Source of the DNA: Pseudogemmatithrix spongiicola
Lineage (GTDB): Bacteria; Gemmatimonadota; Gemmatimonadetes; Gemmatimonadales; Gemmatimonadaceae
Length of the DNA stretch: 64,000 nucleotides
Assembly (NCBI RefSeq): GCF_030623445.1
Contig: NZ_CP130613.1
Coordinates: 2,356,001-2,420,000, forward strand
Reading direction: 5' to 3'
Part shown: positions 3,927 through 36,356 of the stretch, one piece after another
Layout of the letters: each line of letters begins with the position of its first letter
Position numbering within the stretch: position 1 is the first letter of the stretch
Program-made: the position numbers and the translations under genes
The notes under the pieces: generated by a model
Told to the model about the DNA's origin: nothing
Seen by the model: only the letters and a program-made list of their open reading frames with translations
Databases searched by the model: none

Positions 3927-5805
<1,879 letters not shown>

Positions 5806-5817
5806 GGGGTTCTCCAC

Positions 5818-6195: not shown

Positions 6196-6203
6196 ACCTG
6201 TTA

Positions 6204-6234: not shown

Positions 6235-6245
6235 GAGGAGGCCGT

Positions 6246-7394: not shown

Positions 7395-7518
7395 GTCTCC
7401 CGCGGCGCTGACCCCCAGCCACGACGGCTGAGGCGTTCGAACTCGCGCTGCGTGCCCGCCATCGGCGGGCCCCAACAGATCTCGTCGGCCGACCCGTTCG
7501 ACACCGCGCTCAGGCGCG

Positions 7519-10175: not shown

Positions 10176-10192
10176 CCGCCAGAGGATCCCTC

Positions 10193-13608: not shown

Positions 13609-13682
13609 AGGAGCTGAACCACCCGGCGACACGCTCGAGCACCCTCGCGCCGGGTCAACCTGTTGGATACTCCGGAGTCACG

Positions 13683-16172
13683 ATGCGACGTGCTGCGCGG
13701 CTCGACCTGCCCCTGCTGCTCCCCGAAGTGAAGGACCTCCGCGACGCGTGCGTGGCGCGACTCATGCGATTGCTTGAACGCCAAGAGGGCGTCGAGAGCG
13801 TGCACGTGGTCGAGGCGAGTGCGGAGCCGGACGGTGAGCCGCCGCACGCGGACGGCGCGACCCGGACGGCGCCGTCAGGGCCGCAGCTCTGCCTGCACTA
13901 CGATCCCGACCGACTCACGCTGACCCAAGTTGAAGCGTTTGCCCACGCGGCCGGTGCGGGGGTGACCGATCGATTCGCGCATATGGTCATCCCGTTCCGT
14001 GCGGTCGGCGCGGAGGATGAGGGGCGACGCATCGAGGACGCGCTCCGTGAACTTCGCGGCGTGAGCGCGGCCGTCGTCAACTTCGCTGGCCAGGTCGTGC
14101 GCGTGGAGTTCGACCGCCGACGCGTCGATCGGGCGCTGATCGAGGCGCGACTGCGCGAGGTCGGCGCAGTGCCGGTCGCGGAGACCGTGGGACAGGAAGG
14201 CGCTCCGGCGTCCGCGGCGGCCGTAGAGGCGGGGGCGAGCGCGGGGGTGACGAGTCCTGCTGCTCCGATGTCGAAGAGTTGGTCTGCCCGCAACCGCACG
14301 CTCGCGTGGAGCATCAGCTCGGGCGCGCTGCTCGTCGTCGGCTGGGCCTTGGGACGATTCACCGAGGCGCCTTCGGCGCTCGCGCTCGCGTCCTTCGCCG
14401 CGGCGTACTTCTTCGGCGCGCGCGACCTCGTGGGCCACTTCATCGCCGACCTGCGTCGGGGGAAGTTCCGCTTCAACATCGACCTGCTCATGGTGGTCGC
14501 GGCGGCCGGAGCGGCTGTGCTCGACGCCTGGCTCGAAGGGGCGTTGCTGCTCTTCCTCTTTAGTCTCGGTCACTCGCTCGAGAAGTACGCGCTCGGCCGA
14601 GCACGCCGCGCCATCGCCGCGTTGGCCGAGCTCGCCCCACAGTCGGCGACGGTGATCCGCGATGGGAAGGAATTGTCGGTGCCCATCAGCGAGGTGGTCC
14701 GCGGCGACCGCGTGGTCATCAAGCCCGCCGAGCGCATCCCGGTGGACGGGGCGGTGCGTGAGGGAAACTCGGCGGTGAATCAGGCGCCGATCACCGGCGA
14801 GAGCGTGCCGGTCGACAAGGCACCGGGCAAGCCGGTGTTCGCCGGAACGGTGAACGGCGAAGGGGCGCTCGTCGTCGAGGTCACCGCCGCGATCGGTGAC
14901 CGGACACTCGACCGCGTCATCAAGCTGGTCTCGGAGGCGCAGACACAGAAGGCGCCGACGCAGCGGTTCACGGACCGCTTCGCGCGGATCTTCGTGCCGA
15001 TCGTACTCGTCGCCGATGTGTTGCTGATCGCCATCCCACCACTGCTCGGCGTCTGGACGCTCGAGGAGTCGTTCTACCGCGCCATGGCGCTGCTCGTCGC
15101 GGCCTCGCCCTGCGCGCTCGCGCTCGGCACACCGGCCGCCGTGCTCTCGGGCATCGCGCAGGCGGCGCGAAAGGGTGTGCTGATCAAGGGTGGAGCGCAC
15201 CTGGAGTCGCTCGGCGCGATCACGGTGCTGGCACTGGACAAGACCGGGACGATCACGGTCGGGGAGCCGTCGGTCACGGACCTGCGGCCGACGACCGGTG
15301 TGAGCACCGACGCCTTGCTCGCGACGGCGGCTGCAGTCGAGCAGCGCTCGCAGCATCCACTCGCGCACGCGATCATCGGTGCGGCCACGAGCGCCGGCGT
15401 CGCGGTGCCGGCAGCTCGTGATCTCGAGTCGGTGACGGGGCGCGGGATCCGTTCGACGATCGCCGGCGTGCGCGTGGAAGTGGGGCGACTGCTGATGTTC
15501 GAGGAGCGTGGCGCGGCGGTGCCGGCGGCGGTGCGCACCGAGGTCGAGGAGTTGGAGAGGGCGGGGCGCAGCACCGTGGCGGTGCTTCGCGGTGACGAGT
15601 GGCTCGGCGTGATCGGCATCGCCGACGAGCCGCGTGCCGATGTACGGCAGACGCTCGACCGGTTGCGTGCGACGGGGATCCGTCGGATCGTGATGCTCAC
15701 GGGCGACAACGCCGGCGTGGGCAACGCGGTGGGGATGGAGGTGGGCGTGGACGATGTGCGCGCGGGGCTCCTCCCCGAGGACAAGGTCGCGGCGATCAAG
15801 GAACTCGAACGCGAGGGGCGCGTGGCGATGGTCGGCGACGGCGTCAATGATGCCCCGGCGCTCGCGCATGCGACAGTCGGAATCGCAATGGGCGGCGCGG
15901 GGACCGCGGCGGCGCTCGAGACGGCGGACGTGGCGCTCATGGGCGACGATCTCGGCCGTTTGCCGTTCGCGATCGGACTCAGTCGACAGGCGCGTGCGAT
16001 CATCCGGCAGAACCTGATCGTGTCGCTCGCCGTGATCGCGTTGTTGATCGTGGCCACGACGACCGGAGTGATCGGGATCGGTCCGGCGGTCGTGGTGCAT
16101 GAGGGGAGCACTCTAGTGGTGGTTGGAAACGCGCTGCGGCTTCTGGTGTATCGGCACGCCAGTACGGGCTGA
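13683..16172 (+). CDS. Heavy-metal P1B-type ATPase (SPC/HEGST, P1B-4-like)
   Basis: 829 residues. Two HMA-like N-terminal domains (about 1-80 and 95-165) lack the usual CxxC. The transmembrane ion site is AASPCALALGTP, giving SPC rather than CPC, and the last helix carries HEGSTLVVVGNALRLL. SPC plus HEG is the signature of subgroup P1B-4 (CoaT/CtpD/CzcP type: Co2+, Zn2+, Cd2+ or Fe2+). Catalytic motifs are intact: TGES, DKTGTIT, SQHPLA, MLTGDNAG and VGDGVNDAPAL. It ends the rightward cluster 74 bp after the PII-like gene and would complete cytoplasmic export upstream of the RND pump. Confidence 0.9.
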   Translation: MRRAARLDLPLLLPEVKDLRDACVARLMRLLERQEGVESVHVVEASAEPDGEPPHADGATRTAPSGPQLCLHYDPDRLTLTQVEAFAHAAGAGVTDRFAHMVIPFRAVGAEDEGRRIEDALRELRGVSAAVVNFAGQVVRVEFDRRRVDRALIEARLREVGAVPVAETVGQEGAPASAAAVEAGASAGVTSPAAPMSKSWSARNRTLAWSISSGALLVVGWALGRFTEAPSALALASFAAAYFFGARDLVGHFIADLRRGKFRFNIDLLMVVAAAGAAVLDAWLEGALLLFLFSLGHSLEKYALGRARRAIAALAELAPQSATVIRDGKELSVPISEVVRGDRVVIKPAERIPVDGAVREGNSAVNQAPITGESVPVDKAPGKPVFAGTVNGEGALVVEVTAAIGDRTLDRVIKLVSEAQTQKAPTQRFTDRFARIFVPIVLVADVLLIAIPPLLGVWTLEESFYRAMALLVAASPCALALGTPAAVLSGIAQAARKGVLIKGGAHLESLGAITVLALDKTGTITVGEPSVTDLRPTTGVSTDALLATAAAVEQRSQHPLAHAIIGAATSAGVAVPAARDLESVTGRGIRSTIAGVRVEVGRLLMFEERGAAVPAAVRTEVEELERAGRSTVAVLRGDEWLGVIGIADEPRADVRQTLDRLRATGIRRIVMLTGDNAGVGNAVGMEVGVDDVRAGLLPEDKVAAIKELEREGRVAMVGDGVNDAPALAHATVGIAMGGAGTAAALETADVALMGDDLGRLPFAIGLSRQARAIIRQNLIVSLAVIALLIVATTTGVIGIGPAVVVHEGSTLVVVGNALRLLVYRHASTG

Positions 16173-16562
16173 GTTCCGTTGTTATGGCGCGCGAGCCTGC
16201 TACACTCTCGGGCGAGTCTCTGGCGCAGAGGTGCCGACCCGTGCGCGGTGCAGCGCGCATAGCGCAGGGCGATGATGATGCGTTGGCTCAAAGCGCGCGC
16301 GATCTCGCCCCGAACGCCCCTCGTCCGCCGGTCCGGTGAGTGCTTCCGCACGGTCCGGACACAATCCGCTTTGTCGCTCGCAACAGACACGAATATCTCA
16401 ATGCTTCCGCTGGCACTGGGGGCGCCTGCCATGACATCGTGCGCTCCGTCGCGTCGCTTCGAGTGCACCGACCAGATCTTGATGCGGGTGAATGGAGTTC
16501 TGTCGCCGTGCGACCGACGAAGCAGGTTGGCGAAAGGTTGATGGCTACTCGGTCGCGCCGCG
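16173..16562. other. Gene-poor stretch after the metal cluster
   Basis: 390 bp between the ATPase and attC site 7. A 90-codon frame from ATG 16272 and a longer overlapping one exist but show no family resemblance, no ribosome-binding site and poor composition. I see no promoter or RNA gene that I can defend. Confidence 0.5.
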
Positions 16563-16657
16563 GCATAACGAAGCTTGCTGCTGACGGCCACGCTATTGTA
16601 GCGCCCGCTTCGCGGGCGCATCTTATGGAGTGTCCGCAGCAGAAGCACACGTTATAC
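16563..16657 (+). repeat. attC site 7, short class (95 bp)
   Basis: Left box GCATAAC, right box GTTATAC, palindrome GCGCCCGCTTCGCGGGCGC. Confidence 0.93.
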
Positions 16658-17378: not shown

Positions 17379-17430
17379 GGATGCGGACGCCCACGTGCGC
17401 GGGAGAGTTTTCCCGCGCATTTTCTCGCTC

Positions 17431-17459
17431 TTTCGGCTTTCCTTCGGACCCTGTAGATT
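17431..17459 (+). promoter_or_regulatory. Putative leaderless promoter of the methyltransferase gene
   Basis: -10-like TAGATT (17454-17459) ends 7 nt before the ATG at 17467; a weak -35-like TTTCGG (17431-17436) lies 17 bp upstream. The spacing matches a transcript starting at or next to the start codon. Confidence 0.4.
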
Positions 17460-17466
17460 GGGCCGT

Positions 17467-18453
17467 ATGACTGAGAGACTCACTTCACTCGAAATCTGCG
17501 CTGGGGCCGGTGGCCAAGCGCTGGGCTTAGAGCGCGCGGGGTTTAGTCACGCCGCCGCCGTCGAGCTGGATGCGCACGCGGCGAATACGCTTCGTGCCAA
17601 TCGGCCCGAGTGGCGCGTTATGAACGAGGATGTGCGCAATCTCGAGGGCCGCGAGTTCCGCGGCATTGACCTCTTTGCTGGTGGCGTCCCTTGTCCGCCG
17701 TTTTCCGTCGCTGGCAAACAGCTCGGTCCGGATGACCAACGCGATCTGTTCCCCACCGCTCTGAGGCTAGTTGCTGAGTCTAAGCCAGCAGCGGTGATGC
17801 TAGAGAACGTTCAGGGACTCGCAACAGCGAAGTTCAAGAGTTACCGCGCCTCAATCGCGTTGCAGCTTGAGAAGTTGGGATACCGCGTCGACTGGCAGGT
17901 GTTGAATGCGTGCAACTTTGGAGTACCTCAGCTCCGGCCACGCTTCATTCTAGTTGCACTGAAGCCAAAGGCGTTTCGTAACTTCGCGTGGCCGAGTCCT
18001 GTGTCCTCGCCGCCCACTGTCGGCGGGACGCTTCGTGACCTCATGGCATCGCGCGGGTGGCCAGGCGCATTTGCGTGGGCGCAAGCGGCAAACGGAATTG
18101 GCCCCACGCTTGTCGGAGGATCTAAGTTGCACGGTGGACCCGATCTCGGACCGACTCGTGCACGCGAGGCCTGGAAGTTGTTGAATGTGGACGGGCGCGG
18201 ACTTGCGAATGAAGCTCCCGACGCGGACTTCCCCATCGATGGAATGCCGAAGCTGACCGTGCGCATGACCGCGCGCATCCAGGGATTCCCTGACTCTTGG
18301 AAGTTTGAAGGTCGGAAGACTGCTTCGTATCGTCAGGTGGGCAACGCATTTCCTCCTCCAGTGGCCGCAGCCGTTGGAGCTGCCATCAGAGACGCGCTCG
18401 CGGGCCGCGCCTCGAAGCACCTTCCTGAGCAAATCGCGCTCCACGTCGGATAG
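17467..18453 (+). CDS. DNA (cytosine-5) methyltransferase
   Basis: 328 residues. C5-methyltransferase motifs occur in order: I, SLEICAGAGGQALGLERAGF (S-adenosylmethionine site); IV, GGVPCPPFSVAGKQLG with catalytic Cys in PCPPFS; VI, MLENV; VIII, PQLRPRF; IX and X, LTVRMTARIQGFPDSW and YRQVGNAFPPPVA. It protects host DNA from the partner HNH nuclease encoded 2 bp downstream. ATG 17467 was chosen because the catalytic fold begins there; the upstream extension from 17395 is not conserved in type. The two genes together fill one 1.7-kb cassette. Confidence 0.93.
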   Translation: MTERLTSLEICAGAGGQALGLERAGFSHAAAVELDAHAANTLRANRPEWRVMNEDVRNLEGREFRGIDLFAGGVPCPPFSVAGKQLGPDDQRDLFPTALRLVAESKPAAVMLENVQGLATAKFKSYRASIALQLEKLGYRVDWQVLNACNFGVPQLRPRFILVALKPKAFRNFAWPSPVSSPPTVGGTLRDLMASRGWPGAFAWAQAANGIGPTLVGGSKLHGGPDLGPTRAREAWKLLNVDGRGLANEAPDADFPIDGMPKLTVRMTARIQGFPDSWKFEGRKTASYRQVGNAFPPPVAAAVGAAIRDALAGRASKHLPEQIALHVG

Positions 18454-18455
18454 AT

Positions 18456-19076
18456 ATGCCATCAAAGAAGCGTAAGAAGCCCGCGCCGCGCGGCGGCGCA
18501 CGAGCAAAGCTCCGTGAGTATTTCCTTGCTCATGTCGGCGAGGTGGTCGAGTGGAGAACGCTTCGGAAGGTCGCGGGTGGCATCACGGAGTGGGCCCGAC
18601 GCGTGCGCGAGCTGCGACAGCTTGAAGGGATGAACATCGAGACGGACAAGGACAACAGCGCGCTGAAGCCAGGGCAGTACCGTCTCGTCAACACGAAGCC
18701 GCTTCCGGTGTTCTCGTCCGGAATCTCCAAGGAGACGCGCGCGTTCGTGCTGGATCGCAACGGATTCACCTGTCAAATGTGCGGCGCAGTCGCTGGTGAG
18801 CCGCATCCATCAGACCCTTCGCGCAAGACTCGCCTTCACCTCGGTCACATCATCGACCTAAGTCACGGCGGAACGGACGACGCGCAGAATCTCCGAGCTC
18901 TCTGCTCCGTGTGCAACGAGGGCGCCCAGAACATCACGCTGCCGCGTCCGAAGGCGACTCAGCTTCTGACGCAGATTCGACGCGCAGCGGGAGACGAACA
19001 AGTCGAAGTCTTAAAGTGGCTCGTTCGGAAGTATCCAAAGCAAGCTCAGTCGCTCACCGAGAATTCTGCGGACTGA
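18456..19076 (+). CDS. HNH restriction endonuclease
   Basis: A 206-residue protein. N-terminal basic region; residues about 20-70 may be a winged helix (REYFLAHVGEVVEWRTLRKVAGG, ARRVRELRQLEG), a target-recognition fold seen in several type II enzymes. The C-terminal HNH nuclease has two zinc-binding pairs (CQMCG, CSVCN) around HLGHIIDLSHGGTDDAQNLRAL. Its place 2 bp after the methyltransferase stop makes it the endonuclease of a type II restriction-modification system. The recognition sequence cannot be read from the protein. Confidence 0.88.
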   Translation: MPSKKRKKPAPRGGARAKLREYFLAHVGEVVEWRTLRKVAGGITEWARRVRELRQLEGMNIETDKDNSALKPGQYRLVNTKPLPVFSSGISKETRAFVLDRNGFTCQMCGAVAGEPHPSDPSRKTRLHLGHIIDLSHGGTDDAQNLRALCSVCNEGAQNITLPRPKATQLLTQIRRAAGDEQVEVLKWLVRKYPKQAQSLTENSAD

Positions 19077-19117: not shown

Positions 19118-19212
19118 GGATAACGATGCTTGCTGCTGACGGCCACGGTATGGAAGCGGGCGCTTCGCGCCCGCATTTTATGGAGTGTCCGCAGCAGAAG
19201 CAAACGTTAGGT
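19118..19212 (+). repeat. attC site 9, short class (95 bp)
   Basis: Left box GGATAAC, right box GTTAGGT, palindrome GCGGGCGCTTCGCGCCCGC; carries the GCATTTTATGG segment that the IS1111-like elements recognise. Confidence 0.93.
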
Positions 19213-19321
19213 GGACCATTTAGAAGAGGCGCATGCCCGACCCACGTTCAACAATCCTCGTCAGCTTCCCCCTGAGGTAGACAGTCGGAGTTAGACTTGG
19301 GACGGTGCCTATGGAGGAGCC

Positions 19322-19588
19322 ATGCGCCGTTCGAAGTTCACCGAGTCCCAGATCGTGGCCGCCCTGCAGGAAGTCGAAGGCGGGGTGCCCATCGCCGAGG
19401 TGATCCGGAAGCACGGGATCAGCCGGGCGACCTTCTTCACTTGGAAGTCGAAGTACGGCGGGGCGACCGTCGCCGAGCTCAAGCGGCTGCGGGAACTCGA
19501 GGCCGAGAACGTGAAGCTCAAGCGGATGTACGCGGAGCTCGCGCTCGAGAATGCGGCCATCAAGGACGTCCTCAGTCGCAAGCTGTAG
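19322..19588 (+). CDS. IS3-family transposase OrfA
   Basis: An 88-residue DNA-binding subunit. The helix-turn-helix is at residues 3-45 (KFTESQIVAALQEVEGGVPIAEVIRKHGISRATFFTWKSKYGG), followed by a leucine-zipper-like segment (LKRLRELEAENVKLKRMYAELALENAAIK). It overlaps the OrfB frame, which is in the -1 frame, so a fused transposase can arise by programmed -1 frameshifting; no canonical slippery heptamer is obvious. Confidence 0.9.
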   Translation: MRRSKFTESQIVAALQEVEGGVPIAEVIRKHGISRATFFTWKSKYGGATVAELKRLRELEAENVKLKRMYAELALENAAIKDVLSRKL

Positions 19589-19608
19589 CGCCGCCCGCGA
19601 AGCGGCAG

Positions 19609-20442
19609 GTGATCGCGATCTTGGTGGAGGAGCACGGGCTGTCCGTGCGGCATGCCTGCCAGGTCGTGTCCCTCTCGCGGGCGGCGTACTACCGACCGCC
19701 GCCGGACCGGCTGGACCGCGACGCCGACGTGATCGCGGCGCTCACCGCGCTCGTGACCGAGACGCCGCAGTGGGGCTTCTGGATGTGCTTCGATGCGCTG
19801 CGCCTCGCCGGGCATCGCTGGAACTGGAAGCGCGTGTATCGCGTGTACTGCGCGCTGAAGCTCAACCTCAAGCGACGGACGAAACGCCGGATCCCGCCGC
19901 GCGAGCGGCAGCCGCTCGACGCGCCCGCGGTCCTCAACGGGATGTGGGCCGTCGACTTCATGAGCGACATGCTCTACAGCGGGACGCGTTTCCGCACGCT
20001 GAACGTGCTCGACGAAGGCAATCGGGAGGCCCTCGCGGTCGAGGTGGCGCTGTCGCTGCCGGCCGCGCGGGTGACGCAGGTGCTCGACCAGCTCGTCGCG
20101 CTGCACGGGGCGCCGAGCGCGCTCCGCTGTGACAATGGGCCCGAGTTCGTCTCGGTCGAACTCACCACGTGGTGCCGGCGCCATGGCGTGCGGCTGCTGC
20201 ACATCCAACCGGGCAAGCCCAACCAGAACGCCTACATCGAACGCTTCAACGGGAGCTACCGCAAGGAAGTCCTCGACGCGTACCTTTTCGGCTCCCTTGA
20301 CGACGTCCGCGCCGAGACCGAACGCTGGCTCACGATCTACAACACGCGGCGGCCGCACGACAGCCTCGGCCGGGTCCCGCCGCTCACCTTCCTGCCGAGG
20401 TCACCCGCGCCGCTCCAGTCTAGTTACGAACGGTCTGCCTGA
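19609..20442 (+). CDS. IS3-family transposase OrfB (DDE integrase core)
   Basis: A 277-residue catalytic part. An N-terminal HTH_21-like region (VRHACQVVSLSRAAYYRPP) is followed by the rve integrase core with the DDE triad: Asp in WAVDFMSD, Asp in LRCDNGPEF and Glu in AYIERFNGSYRKE. The frame is open well upstream of GTG 19609; expression is more likely by frameshift from OrfA than from this codon. Confidence 0.88.
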   Translation: MIAILVEEHGLSVRHACQVVSLSRAAYYRPPPDRLDRDADVIAALTALVTETPQWGFWMCFDALRLAGHRWNWKRVYRVYCALKLNLKRRTKRRIPPRERQPLDAPAVLNGMWAVDFMSDMLYSGTRFRTLNVLDEGNREALAVEVALSLPAARVTQVLDQLVALHGAPSALRCDNGPEFVSVELTTWCRRHGVRLLHIQPGKPNQNAYIERFNGSYRKEVLDAYLFGSLDDVRAETERWLTIYNTRRPHDSLGRVPPLTFLPRSPAPLQSSYERSA

Positions 20443-21355
20443 CGGGGAAGCTGACGTCCTCACGACGCTCTTCGCTGGACTGGCCGCGAGAAGGCCGCCA
20501 GGAGTGCTATTCCACTATACCTCGCAGCTAGGACTGGTCGGCATCCTTGAATCGCGGTCGTTCTGGGCGACGAACATTCGCTTCCTAAACGACTCGACTG
20601 AGTTTGCTCTTGCACTCTCGTTGTTGGCTGAGTTGCTGCAGACTAAGTCTGAGAGCACCAGAAACAAGTTCGAGCGGGCACTATTCGGGATGCTTCTGGA
20701 AAGTCTCCGAAATGCATCCGAAGCAGATGTATTCGTGACTTTATTTTCCGAGGTCGGAGATCAACTCAGTCAGTGGAGAGCGTACAGTCCGACTGGCTCG
20801 GGATACGCAATCGGACTTGCTCCGCGTACACTCCGTCAAGCACACGGTAACTCTGATCGACTTCATCTTCTTCGTTGCCTGTATCAGCCTTCGGAGCACA
20901 TTGCTGCGCTAGAGCGGCTCATTGGGCTCGCTGAGGACTACATAGACGAACACAAGGTCGCGCAGAGCGACGATCCAGATCGCGTGTATCGAGAGGCATT
21001 CAAGCTTTTCGCGATTTGGCTGCCAATGGTTGCAGCAGTCATCAAGCACTCTTCATTCTCAGAGGAGCGCGAGTGGCGCCTAATCGCGCCCGCTACATTT
21101 TTTGACGAGCAGTCCGTTCGCGTTCGCCCTGGGATGTCGACCCTAGTTCCGTTCAAGCGTTTTGTTCTTGGCGAGAACGATGTGGCTATCGCAGTTGACG
21201 AAATCGTTGTCGGTCCAACACCGCACCCAAGCTTAGCCGTCGAAGCAGTGGCGGCTCTTTGCGAATCGACTGCTCTGCGCAACACTCGTGTCTACTCGTC
21301 CAGAATACCATTTCGGGCATGGTAATGCCGACGGACAACAATGTTCGCAGATGCC

Positions 21356-21403
21356 GATATCCGACGCTTGATTGCTAGGAGCGCGGGTGCGGTGGAGTTT
21401 GTG
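21356..21403 (+). repeat. Left half of an attC site (remnant)
   Basis: GATATCCGACGCTTG, then a degenerate arm and GAGCGCGGGTGCGGT, align with the left half of long-class sites such as attC sites 1 and 14. The palindrome's second half and the right boxes are missing. It lies 30 bp after the DUF2971 stop, where an attC is expected, and 6 bp before the GHKL-ATPase stop. Confidence 0.65.
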
Positions 21404-21408: not shown

Positions 21409-23055
21409 TTAGCGGTACAGCGCTGCGGCTGCGTTTGAGATTCGGTTGAGGGAATGACGAACTTCATAGAGCAAGTCGTCGGCCGGCATATCCGGATCCT
21501 TTTTTGCCATCTCGTAGCCCAACGCGAGCGAGTACTCAGAAAATGCGACCTCATACGACAGCCGCCTGAAGGTCTGCTCTTCGACGCCCCCTTCTCCCAG
21601 TGCAGCCGCGAGCACTGGATTGTCCAAGTTGATCAGAATAGCGAGCGCGTTCGGGTCGTACACGGACCGCATTTCATCCGGCCCAAGATTTCGGTAAGCG
21701 ACCTTGAAGCCTCCGCGGGGCCGAGAGCGTGACCCACCATTGCCGCCACTCGGATCCAGCGCAGAACTGCCGTCTGGATTCGGCGTGCCTGAAGCCGCAA
21801 CCGTCGGTGCCTTCCTGCCACGCGTGCCGTTCCCAGGTTTCCGTGCCGTGCTCTCTTCAACATCACCTGGCACGGCTATTCCCTCGACCCACTCATCAGT
21901 TTCCGAGCCGGCTGCCTGACCATTTCCGAACGCAGATCGTGCGCTTCCGCTCTTGGAGGCTGCCGATCGGATATCGTCTAGTCGCTGCCGCACGTGTTCG
22001 AAGTCCGCGTTCAGGATCTCGGCTATCCTATCAGCTTCCTTGGCGAGGCGAAGTGACTGCACGGACTTTCTCGCCTCTCGCTCCCGCTGAACCAGCCGCG
22101 CCCTGACCTCGTCGAGCTTGGCGCCAATAAACGAAATAAGCACCGCCGCCACGGGGTGAGCAGTGTTGAGGCTCAGGGATCGTGAGGAGTCGTAAGGCTC
22201 AATCAGTGACGAGTGACTTTCGAGCAACGGCGCATCAACAGTTCCGAACAAGTAGTTGCCGAACTCCTTTCGTTCGATTCCAGCTCGCTCGACGGCTACT
22301 AGGTTGCCCGGTCCCGCGGTTATCGCGACCCCCTGCTCAGCTTCTGGCAAGGGAGCCTGAGCCACCTTCACAACCAGCTTTATCGATCCCACGGTCTTGG
22401 ACTGTTCTGCACTCGGGGTGAACTCGAACGTTTCTGCAATGGCCGGCTCACGGTACTCGCAGAGGTGGTCATTGATTGCCACTTGCGGATTGACATTCCG
22501 AAACGCTTGGAGGTGTCGCTCGACATACTCAATGATCGTCGGAACCGCGATACGAGCAAGGGCAACGTCGCTGATGGTGATTGTGGTGCCGTTCGCAAGA
22601 GTAGTCGCCGCGTTGCGCGTAACCCAATTCAGCGGAATCGCGTCACCAGATGATTGAGAGATCATCTGACGTGTGAGCTCGACGGCGTTCAACAGACCAT
22701 CACGCCGAGACTCTACACGAAGGCGGGCCGCTATGCCAAAGGCGGCGGACTTACCTGTGCCGAACTTTCCTCGACCGGGACGACCTGCTTTGCGTTCGAG
22801 GTTCTCACCGTGCATTCGAAAGAAGTGTGAGAGATCATCAGCGTCCATTCCACGCCCGTTATCGCTGATCTCGATCTCTTTGGCTCGCGGCCTTACGGTC
22901 ACCTGAATGCGCGGTGAAATCCCACGATCCACATATTGTAGGCCGTTGACCACGTACTCCCAGACCACCGCGGCCTCTGTCTTGAACGCAGCCGCCGAAG
23001 CTAGGAGGTCGCGCCGTACGTCTGATGTGACTTTCAAGCTCGCGTCCTTGGCCAT
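21409..23055 (-). CDS. GHKL-type ATPase, putative defence or regulatory module
   Basis: A 548-residue cytosolic protein. The N-terminal Bergerat (GHKL) ATP-binding fold has all boxes: N-box with E33 and N37 (EYVVN), G1 D65-N-G-R-G69, and G2 GRGKFGTGK (94-102). The middle region resembles the transducer part of Hsp90/MORC/MutL-like ATPases; a long charged helix (about 320-370) follows, then a low-complexity linker (390-450) and a C-terminal helical domain. I know no named family for the whole protein. It is encoded 1 bp after the small gene at 23057 and back to back with the sigma-like gene, so the three probably act together. Confidence 0.75.
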   Translation of the reverse strand: MAKDASLKVTSDVRRDLLASAAAFKTEAAVVWEYVVNGLQYVDRGISPRIQVTVRPRAKEIEISDNGRGMDADDLSHFFRMHGENLERKAGRPGRGKFGTGKSAAFGIAARLRVESRRDGLLNAVELTRQMISQSSGDAIPLNWVTRNAATTLANGTTITISDVALARIAVPTIIEYVERHLQAFRNVNPQVAINDHLCEYREPAIAETFEFTPSAEQSKTVGSIKLVVKVAQAPLPEAEQGVAITAGPGNLVAVERAGIERKEFGNYLFGTVDAPLLESHSSLIEPYDSSRSLSLNTAHPVAAVLISFIGAKLDEVRARLVQREREARKSVQSLRLAKEADRIAEILNADFEHVRQRLDDIRSAASKSGSARSAFGNGQAAGSETDEWVEGIAVPGDVEESTARKPGNGTRGRKAPTVAASGTPNPDGSSALDPSGGNGGSRSRPRGGFKVAYRNLGPDEMRSVYDPNALAILINLDNPVLAAALGEGGVEEQTFRRLSYEVAFSEYSLALGYEMAKKDPDMPADDLLYEVRHSLNRISNAAAALYR

Positions 23056-23056
23056 T

Positions 23057-23641
23057 TCAACTCTCTTGGGCTACGAGCCCAGTGGTCGCGTACTCGAGAA
23101 AGGAAAGCACTTCTTGATCTGCCTCAAAAAGCTTTCGCAGCCGCTCGATCTTCAGCTGTCGCATTCTGCCGACAGCATAGCTGTCGATTCTGAACACCGC
23201 TTCGGCATCGCGAAGGCCAATTCGCCGCTCGCCAGCGACCCAACTCTGCCAAGCTTCTGTACCGAGAATTCGTTCTCGCTCGCGTCGCCACCTCTGCTCA
23301 TTCAACGGACCTCCACGCGCTTGTTCCCGCGGGCGATCTAGCTGCGCGACACTCATAACTCGCTGTTGCTCTCGCGCCCATCTCACGCCGTGTGGAGTTA
23401 GCGTCCAGCCAGACTTCCCCGACCCGTCCGTGTACCCGCCCTTCTTCGGATTCTTCGCGTCGGACAGATACACGCGAACTAGCTCGAGGTTTATCTGGTT
23501 CGGGTACTTCCGCCACGCGAATCGCGTCGGAGCCAGCTCGTGAGCCTTGATCGCCACATCCTCGGTATCAACCGGACGCTCTGCCGCACCAACGAGGTAG
23601 GCGGCAAGGGAGACTAACTGAGCGTTTGAGAGTTTTGTCAA
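23057..23641 (-). CDS. Small partner protein of the GHKL ATPase, HTH-like
   Basis: A 194-residue protein from a TTG start; no upstream ATG is available and the next in-frame Met is at about 95. The first 90 residues (LSNAQLVSLAAYLVGAAERPVDTEDVAIKAHEL, FAWRKYPNQINLELVRVYLSDAK, GWTLTPHGVRWA) look like a winged-helix domain with a C-terminal wing. The rest is helical and basic. It probably binds DNA or the ATPase. Its stop is 1 bp from the ATPase start, showing tight translational coupling. Function unknown. Confidence 0.65.
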   Translation of the reverse strand: MTKLSNAQLVSLAAYLVGAAERPVDTEDVAIKAHELAPTRFAWRKYPNQINLELVRVYLSDAKNPKKGGYTDGSGKSGWTLTPHGVRWAREQQRVMSVAQLDRPREQARGGPLNEQRWRRERERILGTEAWQSWVAGERRIGLRDAEAVFRIDSYAVGRMRQLKIERLRKLFEADQEVLSFLEYATTGLVAQES

Positions 23642-23646
23642 GAGAT

Positions 23647-23675
23647 TTGTTGATTTGAAATGTCTTGCGTAGTAT
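23647..23675 (+). promoter_or_regulatory. Putative leaderless promoter of the sigma-like gene
   Basis: -35-like TTGTTG (23647-23652), 17-bp spacer and -10-like TAGTAT (23670-23675) end 6 nt before ATG 23682. It lies in the only AT-rich stretch of the 40-bp divergent intergenic region. Confidence 0.5.
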
Positions 23676-23681
23676 TGTAGG

Positions 23682-25883
23682 ATGACGAGTCCTGTTTCCG
23701 CAAGCCTTCAACGGGCTATGCCCTTTCTTGCATGGGGTGAAGCCGGAGCTCCGCTGGTTCCGCGGTCGCTGCGACTTCGATGGTCAAATGAGAAGTTGCC
23801 GGCATGGGTTTGCGATGACCTTGGACTGCTGAGCGGCAGTACGATTTCCTCGCTTGACTCGGGACCGCTTCCCGCAGAGCTAAATCGTGCAGCCAGGGTG
23901 CAAGCGTACCTTGCGCAGCTCATCGACGGTCGGCGCTCCGAGATCGATGGAATCGAGTCCATAGGGTTGCCCTTGCCACCTTCAATAGAAGTGGCGGAGC
24001 TGCCGTTGAAATCGCGGACCAGATTTGCAATCTCAAAGCACCCGGTTTTCCGTCGACCATCCGAGTTGCCGTATCTGACATTCGGGCAGTTGCTGGGTAT
24101 TCCTGGAATGGGCGCGCATTCAGTCCTAGATCTGACCTGCACCATCGAGGCCGCGATGCAAAAGGCAGCGGACGCCGACGCGCCCAACACGCGGCCGGAC
24201 GATTCAGCCGCGATGAGCGAGTTGCTCCTGGACGCACTATCCCAACCTTGGGCAGCAATGGTCAGCGGCTCGGACAGACGCTTCCAGAATTGGCTTCCAG
24301 CCGGCTCACCTCCGGTGGCGGAGCAAATTGACATCCTCACCGCGTCACCAGAATCTCGGGAGAGCGACTTCTCAGCACTTGCGGAAACGCTCAAGGCACT
24401 CCGCCCCGAGCTTGAGCGGGTCACGTCTCTACGACTCGAAGTCGGGTTGGCGGAGTATGTCGCAGTGACCGCCGGAGTTCGGGACAAGCGCCTCGCAGCC
24501 CTCCTTGCGCGCCTTCATCTCGCTGGACAGCCAACGCAAATCACGCTCGAGGAAGCAGGGACCCGCGCAGGTGTAACTCGAGAGCGTATGCGCCAGATTC
24601 AAGTACGCTTCTCCGATCGGCAACCAAAGCACCAAGTCTTTATTCCCGCCCTCGACCGCGCCCTCGGGTGGTTAAGCGAGAACGCTCCAATCGCAGCAAC
24701 CGAAGCAGCTCAGGCGCTAGCCGAGCACAACATCAGCGAGAGACCGTTCCATCCTGCAAGCATTCTGGCCGCAGCGAGGCTCCTCGGGCACGCGACTGGA
24801 GTAAGCATTGAAAGCATCCGGGACATTCCAACTGTAGTCGGATCGCAGTCTGGCCCGCACGTACGCTTCATCGTCCGCGAGGCTCAAAGGCAGCTCTCCG
24901 GCTCCGGAGTCTCGAACGTGCTTGAGGTCGCTGCAGCCGTTCGCATGAATCACGAACAAGATCACGACGAAGTACTCGTCCGCGAAGTGCTTCAAACTTA
25001 CGCATCATTCGAGTTCCTTCATGGTGACTGGTTTTGGGATCCCAGTCGACCGTCGGATCCGCTCCGCTTGATTGCTCGACGCGTTCTCTCTCTCGTGTCG
25101 GAGATCGACGTGGAAAGGCTGAGAGAGGGCATCCGCCGCCAGTTTCGTTTTCGCGAGAGCCTTGCACGGAGAATGGGGCGGCCGTTACTCGTCCCGCCGC
25201 GCGCCGTTCTCGCAGCGTACCTAGCCGCGCATCCAGAATTTGTACTGCAGCCGGATTCTACAGTGCGGTCGGTACGACCGCTCGACTACCGTTCAGAGCT
25301 TGGCCCGATCGAGCGGACAGTCGTAGAAGTGATTCGGTCTTCTCCGAGCAGCGTTCTCGACCGATCCTCAGTACTTCAGCGGACCGGCGCACTTGGTGTG
25401 AATGCAAACTCGGCGTCAATCGCGCTCACTTACAGTTCTACCATCGAGCATCTCGGTACAGACCTGTGGACAGTTCGCGGTGCGATCGTGGATCCCGTCG
25501 TCGTGGAGTCGGTGCGCCGCTCCAAGGCTCTCAGAGTCCGCGAGCGACGCGTCCTCGATTACGGCTGGTCTAACGACGGTCGCCTGTGGGTCGCCGCGCG
25601 CATTCCAGACTCGATAGAAGCCTTTGTCTTTGGCGTCCCCAGTCCAGTCAGCCGATACTTGGCCGGCCGTGACTTCGACGCTTCTGACATGGACGGCAAT
25701 CCGTCTGGCCGAATCCGCGTCTACGACTATGGCGCCGCGACTGGGTTTGTTCCGTTCCTTCGGCGCGCGGGGGCAGATGAAGGAGACTTGCTGTTGATGA
25801 GATTCGATCTAGGAGCTTCGACTGCCATTCTTTCTGTAATCGGCAATGACGATCTGGACACGCTTAGTCCCGAGGAAGACTGA
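23682..25883 (+). CDS. Sigma-region-4-like and alpha-CTD-like DNA-binding protein
   Basis: A 733-residue cytosolic protein. Residues 131-150 (YLTFGQLLGIPGMGAHSVLD) form a helix-hairpin-helix like that of the RNA polymerase alpha C-terminal domain. Residues 287-310 (ITLEEAGTRAGVTRERMRQI and onward) form a helix-turn-helix of sigma-70 region 4 type. Several further helical repeats follow, and the C-terminal 130 residues form an unrecognised beta-rich domain. It is transcribed away from the ATPase pair across a 40-bp gap. The combination suggests promoter or foreign-DNA recognition coupled to the GHKL ATPase; the biological role is not known. Confidence 0.72.
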   Translation: MTSPVSASLQRAMPFLAWGEAGAPLVPRSLRLRWSNEKLPAWVCDDLGLLSGSTISSLDSGPLPAELNRAARVQAYLAQLIDGRRSEIDGIESIGLPLPPSIEVAELPLKSRTRFAISKHPVFRRPSELPYLTFGQLLGIPGMGAHSVLDLTCTIEAAMQKAADADAPNTRPDDSAAMSELLLDALSQPWAAMVSGSDRRFQNWLPAGSPPVAEQIDILTASPESRESDFSALAETLKALRPELERVTSLRLEVGLAEYVAVTAGVRDKRLAALLARLHLAGQPTQITLEEAGTRAGVTRERMRQIQVRFSDRQPKHQVFIPALDRALGWLSENAPIAATEAAQALAEHNISERPFHPASILAAARLLGHATGVSIESIRDIPTVVGSQSGPHVRFIVREAQRQLSGSGVSNVLEVAAAVRMNHEQDHDEVLVREVLQTYASFEFLHGDWFWDPSRPSDPLRLIARRVLSLVSEIDVERLREGIRRQFRFRESLARRMGRPLLVPPRAVLAAYLAAHPEFVLQPDSTVRSVRPLDYRSELGPIERTVVEVIRSSPSSVLDRSSVLQRTGALGVNANSASIALTYSSTIEHLGTDLWTVRGAIVDPVVVESVRRSKALRVRERRVLDYGWSNDGRLWVAARIPDSIEAFVFGVPSPVSRYLAGRDFDASDMDGNPSGRIRVYDYGAATGFVPFLRRAGADEGDLLLMRFDLGASTAILSVIGNDDLDTLSPEED

Positions 25884-25941: not shown

Positions 25942-26036
25942 ACCTAACGAAGCTTGCTGCTGTCAGCCACGCTATTGAAGCGCCCGCTGCGCGGTCGCAT
26001 TTTATGGAGTGTCTGCAGCAGAAGCACACGTTATGG
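25942..26036 (+). repeat. attC site 10, short class (95 bp)
   Basis: Left box ACCTAAC (a perfect RYYYAAC), right box GTTATGG, palindrome GCGCCCGCTGCGCGGTCGC with one mismatch; contains GCATTTTATGG. Confidence 0.92.
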
Positions 26037-29076: not shown

Positions 29077-29211
29077 GTATAACGACGCTTGCTGCCGACG
29101 AGCGCAGGTGCGGTAGCGGTTGTGGGGCCTCGGCTCCATTTTCCGGAAGGTTGGCCGAGGCCCCACAACCGCATTTTATGGGAGCGCTCGCAGCAGAAGC
29201 ACACGTTAGCT
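29077..29211 (+). repeat. attC site 14, long class (135 bp)
   Basis: Left box GTATAAC, right box GTTAGCT, palindrome GCGGTTGTGGGGCCTCGGC with complement. It contains GCATTTTATGGGAGCG, the uninterrupted version of the target used by both IS1111-like copies. Confidence 0.93.
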
Positions 29212-29754
29212 GGACGAAACGGCGCTCTCAGTGAGGTAAAGTTCTTCACTCTTGGAGTATGCCGTGAAGTCGCTCGCACAGCGCGCACATCGTTGCGCCT
29301 CGAACCGTGAGCCCGCCTTCCTGATGTGAGATTTGACGTTTCGCAGGAGCAATGGCCTTTGGCTCTACGCGTTTGACCTGATGCCACTGCCGTTGTTCGC
29401 GAGGCCACCGAGAACGCGCCTCATCTTCATTGGAGGTTGGGCACCGGGCACGGCGGCCGTCGCAGCGGTACGACCCAGCTCCTCAGCAGGGCAAGTAGTC
29501 CGTGCGTTCGAGGGGCCGCAGGCTGACTGCGGTTGGCGCAGACGGACTTCGTCCGGGAAGCAGGTGGGCGGGCGCTTGATTCTGGGCCCACATCTCGATG
29601 AACTCGACGAGCCGGTCGAGGGAACTCTTTCTGGCGTGGACGGCTCGTTACGCACCTCCTTCAAATGCGCCGGTTGATGATGGCGCAGATGACTTGGCGA
29701 GGCGCGCGCGCTTCTTTGGTGCACGAGTCTGGTGCGCAGCACGAAATCATCTGC
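29212..29754. other. Stretch without a recognisable gene
   Basis: 543 bp between attC site 14 and the IS481-family element. Open frames on both strands (29333-29677 +, 29365-29742 -) lack any recognisable domain or ribosome-binding site. It may hold the decayed original content of this cassette. Confidence 0.5.
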
Positions 29755-29760
29755 CCTAGG

Positions 29761-30776
29761 TCTTATTGCTCAGGAGGTTGTTCACAGGGCGTAGCCTCAC
29801 CAAGCTGGGGTTGTCGAGACACGCAACCGGCAACGCCAGAGGCCCTGTGAACACCCACAAGAATGCACGACTCACCCCGTACGCGCGACGGGAGGCCTGC
29901 CGCCGCGTGTGGGCCGGTACGCCCGTCGCCCAGGTCGCCCGCGCCTTCGGTGTGTCGCGGCAGACCATCTACAAGTGGCTGCGCCGCCGCGCGGAGGTCG
30001 AGACGCGCTCGTCGCGGCCGCATCACTCGCCGACGCGCCTGAAGCGCCGCTACCGCCGGCAGATCCTCAAGCGGCGGCGGCAGCGGTGGTCGAGCCGCCG
30101 CATCGCGCAGCACACGGGCCTGCCACTCTCGAGCGTCGGCCGCGAGCTGCGCCGCCTGGGGCTCGGGCGCCTGCCGCGTGTCGAGCCCCCGCGGCGCCTC
30201 GTGCGCTACGAACGGGCGCGGCCCGGCGAGCTCGTGCACCTCGACGTCAAGAAGCTCGGGCGCATCGGCGTCGTCGGGCACCGCATCCACGGGGACCGCA
30301 CCCGCCGCACGCGCGGACGCGGCTGGGAGTTCGTGCACGTCGCCATCGACGACCACACGCGCATCGCGTACGTCGAGGTCTTGCCTGACGAGACGGCACC
30401 GACCGCGGCGGCCTTCCTCGCGCGCGCGGTCGCCTGGTACGCGGCGCTCGGCATCGTCGTCGAGCGCATCCTCACCGACAACGGCAGCTGCTACCGCGCG
30501 CTCCCCTTCGCGGAGCAGGCGCTCACGCTCGGCGTCGGCCAGCGCTTCACGCGCCCGTATCGGCCGCAGACGAACGGCAAGGCGGAGCGCTTCATCCGCA
30601 CGCTGCTCGCGGAGTGGGCCTATGAACGCCCGTACGGCCGCTCCGGCTGGCGGACCCGCGCGCTCCCGCACTATCTCTCCTTCTACAACACCGAGCGCCG
30701 CCACAGCGCGCTCGGCGATCGCACCCCGGCCCAGCGACTCGCCCTCTACCTGTCAACAACGTGCTAGGTCATTACA
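29761..30776 (+). mobile_element. IS481-family insertion sequence, copy 1 (1016 bp)
   Basis: Terminal inverted repeats: left TCTTATTGCTCAGGAGGTTG, right reading inward TGTAATGACCTAGCACGTTG. Flanked by CCTAGG at 29755-29760 and 30777-30782, a 6-bp target duplication of the CTAG-containing kind preferred by IS481. The right end sits 12 bp before the P1B-ATPase stop codon. Confidence 0.88.
29847..30767 (+). CDS. IS481-family transposase (copy 1)
   Basis: A 306-residue protein from GTG. An N-terminal helix-turn-helix pair (YARREACRRVWAGTPVAQVARAFGVSRQTIYKWLRR and RRIAQHTGLPLSSVGRELRRLGL) precedes the rve integrase core with Asp in LVHLDVKKLG, Asp in ILTDNGSCYR and Glu in TNGKAERFIRTL (DDE). The copy at 44879 is clearly related but diverged at many residues, so the two came from separate transpositions. 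Confidence 0.93.
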   Translation: MNTHKNARLTPYARREACRRVWAGTPVAQVARAFGVSRQTIYKWLRRRAEVETRSSRPHHSPTRLKRRYRRQILKRRRQRWSSRRIAQHTGLPLSSVGRELRRLGLGRLPRVEPPRRLVRYERARPGELVHLDVKKLGRIGVVGHRIHGDRTRRTRGRGWEFVHVAIDDHTRIAYVEVLPDETAPTAAAFLARAVAWYAALGIVVERILTDNGSCYRALPFAEQALTLGVGQRFTRPYRPQTNGKAERFIRTLLAEWAYERPYGRSGWRTRALPHYLSFYNTERRHSALGDRTPAQRLALYLSTTC

Positions 30777-30788
30777 CCTAGGCTCCGC

Positions 30789-32966
30789 CTATCCGCGCAG
30801 CATGCGGAGTCCGCTCGCAATCACCACGAACTCACTCATCTCGTGGCCGATCACTGCCAAGGGCAGCGTAAGCTGGCCGAGCACCGCGCCCACCACCAGC
30901 ACCGTGATCACGATGACGGAGAGTGCGAGGTTCTGCCGCACGACGCGCTCGTGGCGTCGGGCGAGGCGAAGCGCGTATACGAGCTTGTCGAGATCGTCCG
31001 CCATCAGCGCCACGTCGGCAGTCTCGAGTGCGACGTCCGTTCCCGCGGCGCCCATCGCCACGCCAACAGTCGCTTCTGCCAAAGCGGGCGCGTCGTTCAC
31101 CCCGTCACCGACCATTGCTACGTGCCCGTCGCGTGCCGTGAGATTGCGGACAATGCCCGCCTTGTCCTCGGGTGTCAGGTCGGCGTATACCTCGTCGATG
31201 CCGACTTCGCGAGCGATCGCCCTGGCCGTTCGCTCGTTATCGCCAGTCAACATCGCGACGGTGCGGACGCCGGACGCGTGGAGCGCACGAATGGCCGACG
31301 CCGCGTTGGGACGCACGTTGTCACGAATGGCGAGAATGGACCAGGCCGAACCCGCGTCGCCAACCACGATCACGGTCTTGCCTTCCATTTGAAATCGAGA
31401 GACGTCCGCGGCCACTTCACCGAGCGACACGCGGAGCTCGCGCTCGAATAGCGCGGGACTCCCGACAAGCACCTCCTGTCCTCCGTTTGCTGAATCCAGA
31501 CGCGCCGCGGCACCGGCCCCCGTGAGCGAGCGAAAGTCCGTGATCGACGCCGGTGTCACACCACGCGACTTCGCGTATCGAAGGATGGCTCGCGCCAGCG
31601 GATGTTGACTTCGCGACTCGATACCTGCGGCCGCGGCGAGCACACGTTCGGCGGCGAGCGGTGAGCCAGCGAGCAATATCATGTCGGTGACCTCAGGCGC
31701 GCCGTGCGTGATCGTGCCCGTCTTGTCGAGCGCGACAACCCGCACTTTCGCCAGATCCTCTACGAACACTCCTCCTTTGATCAGCACGCCGCGTCGTGCC
31801 GCAGTGCCTAGCGTCGCCACGAGCGCGATAGGAATCGAGATCACGAGCGCGCATGGCGCGGCCGCGACGATGAACACCGTTGCTCGGGCGATCCACTCTC
31901 GCCACGCGGCATCGGTCAGCAGCGGCGGGAGGATGGCGATGAGGATTCCGATGGCCAGAACGGCCGGGCTGTAGCGTTTGCCAAAGCGCTCGATGAAACG
32001 CTCACTGTTACCCTTCCGCTCCTGCGCCTCCTCGACCATGTGAATGATGCGCGCGATGGTGTTGTCTGCGAACGCCTTCGTCGCGCGCACCTCCAGCGCG
32101 CCTTCGCCGTTGATCGTGCCGGCAAAGACGGTATCGCCGACGTTCTTCTCCACTGGCACGCTTTCGCCCGTGACCGGTGCCTGGTCGACGCTGGATTGGC
32201 CGATCACTACTTCGCCATCCGTCGGCATGGACTGCCCTGGCAGCACGACGAAGACGTCGCCGGCCTTGACCTCCTCGGCGGGAATGTCGACCTCGCCCCC
32301 GTCCCGACGTACGCGCGCGGTCCTCGGCGCGAGGTTCATCAGCGCCTTGACGGCAGCGCGAGTCTTCTCGCCGGTGTACCCCTCCGCCGCCTCGGACATT
32401 GAGTAGAGGAAAGCGAGCATCGCCCCTTCGAATGGCTCGCCCATCAGCGTCGCGACCACAGCCGCCGTGGCCATGAGCAACTCGATGCCGACCTCGCGTT
32501 CGAGGAGCAGTTCCTCGATCGCTTCGCGGCCGAAGTAATAGCCGCCGATGATGAGCGAAGCGATGAAGACGGCCGTCGCAGCGACTTCAGGCGCGCCGCC
32601 ACGCGAGAGAAGCCAACCAGTAAGGAGGAGAACTCCCGACAGCGCCGACGTGACGACCCTTGGATTCCTCCATGGACGGGGCCGCGCAACCATGGTCGTC
32701 GGTCCCTGTGCCGGGAAGCCGAGATCGCGGAGTTGATTCTTGAGGGAGTCCGCGGACGTGGTGCCGGCCGCGAAGCGGACCGAGACGCGTGCCGCCTTCG
32801 GGTATACGGTGATCTTTGAGACTCCGGGCGCGCCACCGAGCGCCCGCTGGATCTTTGCGGCGTCGTTCTCACAGTCGAGGTTCGCGACCCGGACATCGAG
32901 CGTCGCCTCCGCGTCGCCCGAGACAGCCACGAATTGCTCGTCGGATGTGTTCCTCACGTCGCGCAC
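30789..32966 (-). CDS. Heavy-metal P1B-type ATPase (APC motif)
   Basis: About 725 residues. One HMA-like domain with LDCENDAAK instead of CxxC is followed by six core transmembrane segments, TGES, the ion-site motif AAAPCALVI (APC), DKTGTIT, SQHPLA, MLTGDNER and VGDGVNDAPAL. The last helix carries GHEMSEFVVIASGLRML. APC plus His-Glu in the last helix is close to the P1B-4 group, suggesting divalent Co/Zn/Cd export. GTG 32966 follows a GAGG; TTG 32969 is the alternative. It is cotranscribed with the repressor gene at 33041 (leftward) and divergent from czcCBA. Confidence 0.88.
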   Translation of the reverse strand: MRDVRNTSDEQFVAVSGDAEATLDVRVANLDCENDAAKIQRALGGAPGVSKITVYPKAARVSVRFAAGTTSADSLKNQLRDLGFPAQGPTTMVARPRPWRNPRVVTSALSGVLLLTGWLLSRGGAPEVAATAVFIASLIIGGYYFGREAIEELLLEREVGIELLMATAAVVATLMGEPFEGAMLAFLYSMSEAAEGYTGEKTRAAVKALMNLAPRTARVRRDGGEVDIPAEEVKAGDVFVVLPGQSMPTDGEVVIGQSSVDQAPVTGESVPVEKNVGDTVFAGTINGEGALEVRATKAFADNTIARIIHMVEEAQERKGNSERFIERFGKRYSPAVLAIGILIAILPPLLTDAAWREWIARATVFIVAAAPCALVISIPIALVATLGTAARRGVLIKGGVFVEDLAKVRVVALDKTGTITHGAPEVTDMILLAGSPLAAERVLAAAAGIESRSQHPLARAILRYAKSRGVTPASITDFRSLTGAGAAARLDSANGGQEVLVGSPALFERELRVSLGEVAADVSRFQMEGKTVIVVGDAGSAWSILAIRDNVRPNAASAIRALHASGVRTVAMLTGDNERTARAIAREVGIDEVYADLTPEDKAGIVRNLTARDGHVAMVGDGVNDAPALAEATVGVAMGAAGTDVALETADVALMADDLDKLVYALRLARRHERVVRQNLALSVIVITVLVVGAVLGQLTLPLAVIGHEMSEFVVIASGLRMLRG

Positions 32967-33040
32967 CAATCATTTCCTCTCATGTACGGTGTGAAGCGGA
33001 TCAACCCTTCGTTCTGCCGACGCCACTCACGGAACCACCC

Positions 33041-33502
33041 CTACCCGTTTCGCTCCAGATGGCGAATGCCCTCTCGCACCAGCTCGCCGACGTGGGCATC
33101 GTCCAGCGAGTAGTACGCGATCTTCCCAACCTTGCGGTATCGCACCAGGGCGAGCTGCCGGAGCGTGCGTAGCGAATGTGATACTCCGGATTCGGAGACG
33201 CCTATGAGCGTCGCCAGATCGCAGACGCAAAGCTCGTCGACACCTTCGGTCGCGAGCGCGCAGACGATCTGCAGCCGCGTCCGGTCGCCGAGGGCTCGAA
33301 GGGTTTCAGCCAACGCCGCTAGGGTTCGCAACTCGGGCAGGGAGGCGCCTGCCAGTGCGACTTTCTCCTTGTCGACCCACTGCACCTCACAGAGGTCAGC
33401 GCGATCGCCAGGTGCTGCTGCGCGCTTCACCGCGTGCGCGGTCCGACGCACGCGATTGCCGGTGCCTCGGCTGGGGGATTGCGGACCAGAAGGGGACGTC
33501 AT
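33041..33502 (-). CDS. ArsR/SmtB-family metal repressor, CadC-like
   Basis: A 153-residue winged-helix repressor. An N-terminal extension with DLCEVQWVD and the helix motif DELCVCDLATLIGVSESGVSHSLRTLRQLALV supply Cys ligands like CadC (Cys in the N-terminal arm, C-x-C in the alpha-3 region). Metal binding (Cd/Pb/Zn type) would release it from DNA. It lies upstream of the P1B ATPase on the same strand and faces the divergent czcCBA operon; a matching dyad lies directly before its start. Confidence 0.9.
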   Translation of the reverse strand: MTSPSGPQSPSRGTGNRVRRTAHAVKRAAAPGDRADLCEVQWVDKEKVALAGASLPELRTLAALAETLRALGDRTRLQIVCALATEGVDELCVCDLATLIGVSESGVSHSLRTLRQLALVRYRKVGKIAYYSLDDAHVGELVREGIRHLERNG

Positions 33503-33509
33503 ACGTTAG

Positions 33510-33531
33510 TGAATACCTGAGCAGATGTTCA
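33510..33531. promoter_or_regulatory. Putative ArsR/CadC operator
   Basis: Imperfect 22-bp dyad with half-sites TGAATACCTGAG and (opposite strand) TGAACATCTGCT, the length and TGAA..TTCA ends typical of ArsR/SmtB operators. It lies 8 bp before the repressor start and could control both directions. Confidence 0.6.
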
Positions 33532-33653
33532 TACAATATACCAGCGCCAAGTAAGCGACGCAACATCTCGTGGGCGCATTCTCATCTCTGGACTCGCCGC
33601 CCGGCTCGTCATCGACGCTCCTTAGTCGCGGGCGTCCGGTCGCACACCACCAC

Positions 33654-36348: not shown

Positions 36349-36356
36349 AGCCCCGA

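Follow-up and report, generated by a model that had tools for sequence, protein, structure and literature searches.

Most described prokaryotic ATPases of the GHKL/paraMORC kind act together with nucleases (PMC2292703; VcSduA, PMC12137116). The paraMORC or prokaryotic MORC proteins of restriction-modification (R-M) systems have an N-terminal GHKL module, are mobile and patchily distributed and are associated with restriction genes, in operons whose other genes encode SF2 helicases, nucleases or methylases (Iyer et al. 2008, PMC2292703). The GHKL-Shedu protein VcSduA, of the paraMORC3 type and experimentally shown to act in defence, is encoded by a single gene in which the ATPase is fused to a PD-(D/E)xK (DUF4263) nuclease (PMC12137116). 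In the anti-phage system MZA, a sigma-type protein bearing sigma region 4 (MzaA) is paired with a GHKL, MutL-like ATPase (MzaB) and with further genes (Z1-domain, AIPR-type). Here we describe three adjoining genes, hereafter the trio, found in a 64,000-nucleotide stretch of the Pseudogemmatithrix spongiicola chromosome (contig NZ_CP130613.1, positions 2,356,001 to 2,420,000, forward strand; the whole stretch is referred to as the window). They encode a GHKL ATPase, a small winged-helix protein and a 733-residue protein that joins sigma region 4 to a domain of the RNA polymerase alpha subunit. The trio is a real, conserved, stand-alone three-gene module; it appears to belong among GHKL-ATPase-based mobile DNA-targeting modules and looks undescribed. 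Its parts lie in the window as follows.

21409-23055, minus strand: GHKL ATPase gene, 548 residues; the protein has HATPase_c_3 in its N-terminal half, a low-complexity linker at about 370-445 and a conserved C-terminal domain at 448-548
23057-23641, minus strand: winged-helix gene, 194 residues, TTG start; winged helix-turn-helix (HTH) at residues 1-108, then a helical C-terminal domain
23642-23681, no strand: divergent intergenic region of 40 bp, from the start of the HTH gene to the start of the sigma-like gene
23682-25883, plus strand: sigma-like, putative DNA-reading gene, 733 residues
23973-24179, plus strand: alpha-subunit C-terminal domain (alpha-CTD)-like helix-hairpin-helix of the 733-residue protein, residues about 98-166
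24435-24617, plus strand: sigma-70 region 4 of the same protein, residues about 252-312, with a TRERxRQI recognition helix
24645-25487, plus strand: four predicted winged-helix domains of the same protein, residues about 322-602
25572-25850, plus strand: B3-like barrel of the same protein, residues about 631-723

These coordinates bear out the gene sizes and orientations given in an earlier note on this DNA, which had described a coupled leftward pair facing a rightward gene across a divergent gap of 40 bp. The HTH gene and the ATPase start codon are separated by 1 nt. A promoter scan of the 40-bp gap returned a single weak plus-strand match (23655-23683) that was no better than those in shuffled sequences.

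To follow the trio across genomes, the ATPase was used as the only seed in a homologue scan of about 85,000 species genomes, and the partner genes were sought afterwards. The 19 loci that were returned are spread over at least seven phyla. Wherever sequence upstream of the ATPase gene was available (15 loci), the HTH gene was adjacent, and in 18/18 testable loci so was the sigma-like gene, the remaining case ending at a contig edge. Homologues scattered without each other, or a link to a housekeeping pathway, had been named beforehand as the outcomes that would speak against a module; what was found instead is a trio held together across phyla. No fourth conserved gene was found across the trio loci. 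In the ATPase tree, two clades with 100/100 support coincide exactly with two gene layouts, each spread over several phyla: a divergent layout (seven rows; the window's own genome, Acidobacteriota, Pseudomonadota and Actinomycetota) and a co-directional one (ten rows; Verrucomicrobiota, Myxococcota, Bacillota, Actinomycetota and Pseudomonadota). All three genes are under purifying selection, with ratios of nonsynonymous to synonymous substitution rates of 0.03-0.19 (pairs with measurable synonymous divergence). The trio is also rare, patchy and horizontally spread: the ATPase was found in 2/150 genomes of its own phylum and, among 398 sampled Pseudomonadota and 289 sampled Verrucomicrobiota, in the seed genomes only, while a profile of the sigma-like protein run against 179 genomes of its own family matched mostly housekeeping sigma factors, its full-length matches being the two copies of the own genome (see below). 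Carriage of the trio on plasmids was considered and rejected, the two plasmid-borne matches being distant relatives (Rhizobium, Diaphorobacter), neither of them with the trio. On the Rhizobium plasmid (L027, 5941-7485) a distant ATPase relative (28%) has neither the HTH nor the sigma-like gene nearby. A phage origin was likewise rejected: relatives of the ATPase and the HTH protein were absent from viral contigs, ATPase relatives were absent from phage records, the only viral match of the sigma-like protein (L036) was an ordinary phage sigma factor, and a viral structure library yielded no match below E 0.001.

The 548-residue protein is a GHKL ATPase, as the earlier note had proposed. It matched Pfam HATPase_c_3 well above threshold (E 3.2e-14; 53.6 bits against a cut-off of 25) and its motifs are intact, namely the N-box with E33 and N37 (WEYVVN), DNGRGM (DxGxG) and GRGKFGTGKSAAFG, with GRGKFGTGKS as the G2 motif. 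Its closest profiles were those of the restriction-linked BbrUII/HgiDII enzymes, MutL, HtpG and ParE. The uncharacterised C-terminal domain (448-548) is conserved among relatives. The winged-helix character of the 194-residue protein, also proposed earlier, is supported by its structure model (predicted local distance difference test, pLDDT, 89.7; Z 9.4 to AF1382), which shows a winged helix followed by the helical C-terminal domain; no Pfam family matched this protein.

The combination of a sigma-70 region-4-like HTH with an alpha-CTD-like helix-hairpin-helix, which the earlier note had read from the 733-residue protein, emerged clearly at the level of the family. Taken singly, the window protein gave a sub-threshold Pfam match to Sigma70_r4 (E 0.005); across the family, Sigma70_r4 was matched in 19/19 members and RNA_pol_A_CTD in 13/19 (best E 2e-28), and the family profile matched solved sigma-4 structures with an E value of 1.8e-14. 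The -35 recognition helix [TS]RERxRQ is present in all 19 members with R-E-R-x-R-Q invariant, and wherever the alpha-CTD aligns, the residues that correspond to alpha R265 and G296 are retained. Judged by these profile matches, the two parts are true homologues of the RNA polymerase sigma-70 family and of its alpha subunit. Sigma70_r2 was not matched in any of the 19 members at E values up to 1, and the 733-residue protein, lacking sigma region 2, would therefore be unable to open promoters as a sigma factor. It thus shares sigma region 4 and the alpha-CTD with RNA polymerase but differs from it in having neither sigma-2 nor core-binding regions and in adding winged helices and a B3-like domain. 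An AlphaFold2 model (pLDDT 88.7) places four winged helices after sigma region 4 and ends in a barrel that resembles plant B3 domains (Foldseek probability 1.00). The B3 fold also serves for DNA recognition in EcoRII and BfiI. A distant sigma-4 protein of 724 residues (26% identity) on the Diaphorobacter plasmid (L028, 6542-9504) adjoins a trypsin-like peptidase gene and has no GHKL ATPase beside it, hinting that this type of reader may be reused with other partners.

Compared with the described systems, the trio was nearest to MZA, and membership of that system was rejected since the similarity is at the level of domains only. Against the NCBIfam models, the MzaA match had an E value of 0.0018 (17.2 bits over 25 residues, cut-off 800), and the ATPase matched MzaB with 2.4e-4 and 19.6 bits (cut-off 850). 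The MzaA model spans nearly a whole sigma-70 factor, its positions of about 230-716 being matched by RpoD-type sigma factors, whereas the 733-residue protein matches about 25 residues of the HTH and is without sigma-2; the further MZA genes also have no counterpart in a conserved fourth gene of the trio. The best NCBIfam match of the ATPase was to the BbrUII/HgiDII restriction enzymes (4.8e-14), but it covers residues 28-217 only, reaches 51.8 bits against a cut-off of 550 and leaves the ATPase without the restriction-enzyme C-terminal part and with other partners. Unlike the paraMORC operons, the trio has two DNA-binding proteins as the only constant partners of its ATPase, and unlike VcSduA, its ATPase has no DUF4263 match. 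No literature on the trio, or on sigma-4 plus alpha-CTD proteins in defence, was found within our coverage, which left out preprints and most subscription papers. The earlier note, which had named no known system with this trio, was thus borne out in the profile comparisons and in the literature covered.

The defence role suggested in the earlier note was also considered in the light of the neighbouring genes. PADLOC models identified immediate neighbours at 5/9 scanned foreign loci: a PARIS-type AriAB-like protein (L009, 2e-50), a DRT-associated PD-DExK protein (L010), an Eco57I-type methyltransferase (L012), Lamassu LmuA, LmuB and LmuC at one end of the trio and a Schlafen-group helicase at the opposite end (L015), and a C5 methyltransferase together with an Eco29kI-like endonuclease (L022). 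Elsewhere the trio adjoins genes for an Mrr_N protein (L014), a PIN protein (L021) and an NYN protein (L008). Such neighbours support a defence role without proving it. The anti-phage reading put forward earlier is partly supported, by the conserved trio, its patchy distribution and its position next to defence genes in several genomes, while the function itself stays inferential and no effector with catalytic activity was recognised.

GHKL proteins of the MutL, MORC and Hsp90 type work as dimeric clamps. The reading that we favour, in which we place about evenly balanced confidence, is that the trio is a mobile, self-contained DNA-targeting module, directed most likely against phages or plasmids, in which the reader guides an ATPase clamp that silences DNA without cutting it. 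The 733-residue protein would read DNA through its stacked DNA-binding domains, among them the RNA polymerase readers of -35 and UP elements, and would mark DNA competent for transcription (foreign DNA) or promoter complexes. As an adaptor, the winged-helix protein may link the reader to the ATPase, and the ATPase would use ATP to close on the marked DNA as a dimeric clamp of the MutL/MORC/Hsp90 type, so that the clamped DNA would be compacted or its transcription blocked. Silencing or occlusion is favoured over cutting because no nuclease was recognised: Pfam and fold searches of the three proteins (the ATPase by sequence) gave no nuclease match, and the invariant residues of the three families form no recognisable nuclease motif. 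The joint conservation of the genes, their domain content, horizontal spread and selection, and the defence genes beside several loci are observed. The assembly of the three proteins into a complex, its target, the loading of the clamp, the silencing step and the protection against phages or plasmids are all parts of the model that we infer. A bolder version, tentative and on the unlikely side, is a nuclease-free immunity that would detect foreign DNA by its promoters and silence or compact the invader with a MORC-like clamp, as a bacterial counterpart of MORC-based silencing. Bacterial GHKL/MORC-type ATPases are known mainly as partners of nucleases, while here the only partners are putative DNA readers, one of them with the promoter-recognition domains of RNA polymerase. 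If true, the immunity would work by sensing promoters and silencing the DNA, and the trio would offer a compact bacterial model of how MORC-type proteins silence; with its three genes, its two independent copies within a single genome and its relatives in further phyla, it would be a tractable one.

Several observations weigh against this reading. The clamp action is carried over from what is known of the GHKL family, and promoter reading from conserved residues, so that the true target may be RNA polymerase or something else. The alpha-CTD is missing in one member (L015) and degenerate in others, and the VIA Z of the B3-like barrel (about 8 over about 90 residues) is close to the ambiguous level of the tool, yet many B3 domains agree. 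A domain that escaped recognition could harbour a catalytic activity. At about half of the loci no obvious defence gene is found nearby, and several loci have housekeeping surroundings (L006, L017/L024, L020, L026).

The hidden activity just mentioned leads to an alternative explanation, which we regard as unlikely, namely that the trio defends by killing or cleaving through an unrecognised nuclease or toxin in the ATPase C-terminal domain, the C-terminal barrel or the helical domain of the HTH protein, triggered by the ATPase and the reader. The pairing of most described prokaryotic GHKL/paraMORC proteins with nucleases (PMC2292703; PMC12137116) and the match of the ATPase N-terminal half to the BbrUII/HgiDII family (4.8e-14) are in keeping with such an effector, but neither the invariant residues nor the Pfam and fold comparisons point to a nuclease. 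Two promoter-reading RNA polymerase domains within one protein would also be expected of a mobile transcription reprogrammer, in which the sigma-4/alpha-CTD protein targets RNA polymerase or the promoters of the host and the GHKL protein is an anti-sigma-like ATP switch, so that host expression is altered and foreign DNA is not attacked. We consider this quite unlikely since sigma region 2 occurs in 0/19 members, which leaves no promoter opening of the sigma-factor kind, since the ATPase resembles MutL, HtpG, ParE and restriction-linked GHKL proteins and not the small anti-sigma kinases, and since the trio is rare, has spread horizontally and often adjoins defence genes.

It is very unlikely, further, that the trio is an accessory of adjoining R-M genes, that is, an R-M component of the paraMORC type. 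The C5 methyltransferase and HNH genes near the window copy, the C5 methyltransferase with Eco29kI-like endonuclease at L022, the Eco57I-type methyltransferase at L012 and the published paraMORC context (PMC2292703) would agree with such a role; however, the neighbours vary by locus (Lamassu, PARIS or none), the trio is not consistently accompanied by a methyltransferase or helicase, and the other copy in the own chromosome has none. That the trio is a chance cluster of unrelated cassette genes is extremely improbable: integron arrays do gather unrelated genes, and the window holds 32 attC sites, but the adjacency of the trio in all testable genomes, also outside integrons, refutes it.

The mobility of the trio is illustrated by its second copy in the own genome (3.26 Mb), at 672-676 kb and also divergent. 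The two trios are 55% (ATPase), 43% (HTH) and 33% (sigma-like) identical, and the two copies were probably acquired separately because the window ATPase is nearer to an acidobacterial protein (62% identical) than to its own paralogue (55%). The second copy lies between a VanZ-like gene and ccmE (L006, about 7983-14329), an interval of 6.3 kb here (trio plus insertion sequence, IS) compared to 121 bp in a close congener, while three other congeners have different inserts between these genes (sites compared, L073-L076). Because of the empty 121-bp site and the other inserts, the second copy is read as an acquired insert at a variable site. One congener's insert consists of an IS and of genes resembling an ImmA/HTH-type regulator and a PIN-type protein. 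The IS beside the trio has CGTCAGCTTCCCC/GGGGAAGCTGACG ends, and just three copies of it occur in the genome (window 19256-20456; L006 12823-14023; L048 7652-8849). Two of them share 99.9% identity and are each found at most about 1 kb from a different one of the two trios, on opposite sides, a post hoc observation that we leave unexplained. Duplication of the trio by the IS was rejected because the trios (55/43/33% identical) are far more diverged than the IS copies.

The window covers part of a chromosomal integron and the trio stands in one of its cassettes. The integron integrase gene (intI) lies at contig position 2,333,039, about 23 kb before the start of the window, and the window holds 32 attC right ends, all on the plus strand, compared to 0 expected. 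The surroundings of the trio are as follows.

17395-18453, plus strand: C5 cytosine methyltransferase gene, preceding cassette (context)
18456-19076, plus strand: HNH protein gene, preceding cassette (context), with a weak match to type II restriction endonuclease models
19119-19210, plus strand: preceding attC, intact, 92 bp, bounding the composite cassette on the left
19256-20456, plus strand: IS, 1.2 kb, in the composite cassette of the trio (context, not part of the module)
20457-21325, plus strand: DUF2971 gene, directly after the IS (context; PF11185, E 1.2e-9)
21362-21399 (about), plus strand: attC left-half remnant between the DUF2971 gene and the ATPase gene, placed by gapped alignment
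25943-26034, plus strand: intact attC, 92 bp, closing the composite cassette

The restriction and DUF2971 genes that had been noted beside the module are thus present. The C5 methyltransferase and HNH genes, in the cassette between the attC sites at 17284 and 19119, form a probable type II R-M pair, and the 5' end of the DUF2971 gene was probably cut by the IS. An ungapped matrix did not separate the attC remnant from background, while in a gapped alignment to the left halves of intact attC sites it scored 41 compared to a maximum of 35 in 1000 shuffles. The remnant claimed in the earlier note is thus real; its right half is absent and may have been replaced by the module, as the note had put it. 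Neither of two long stretches of the array (3920-16564 and 29210-39948) matched the patterns of attC ends, and degenerate attC-like sequences near 6700-6773 and 57247-59774 point to sites in decay.

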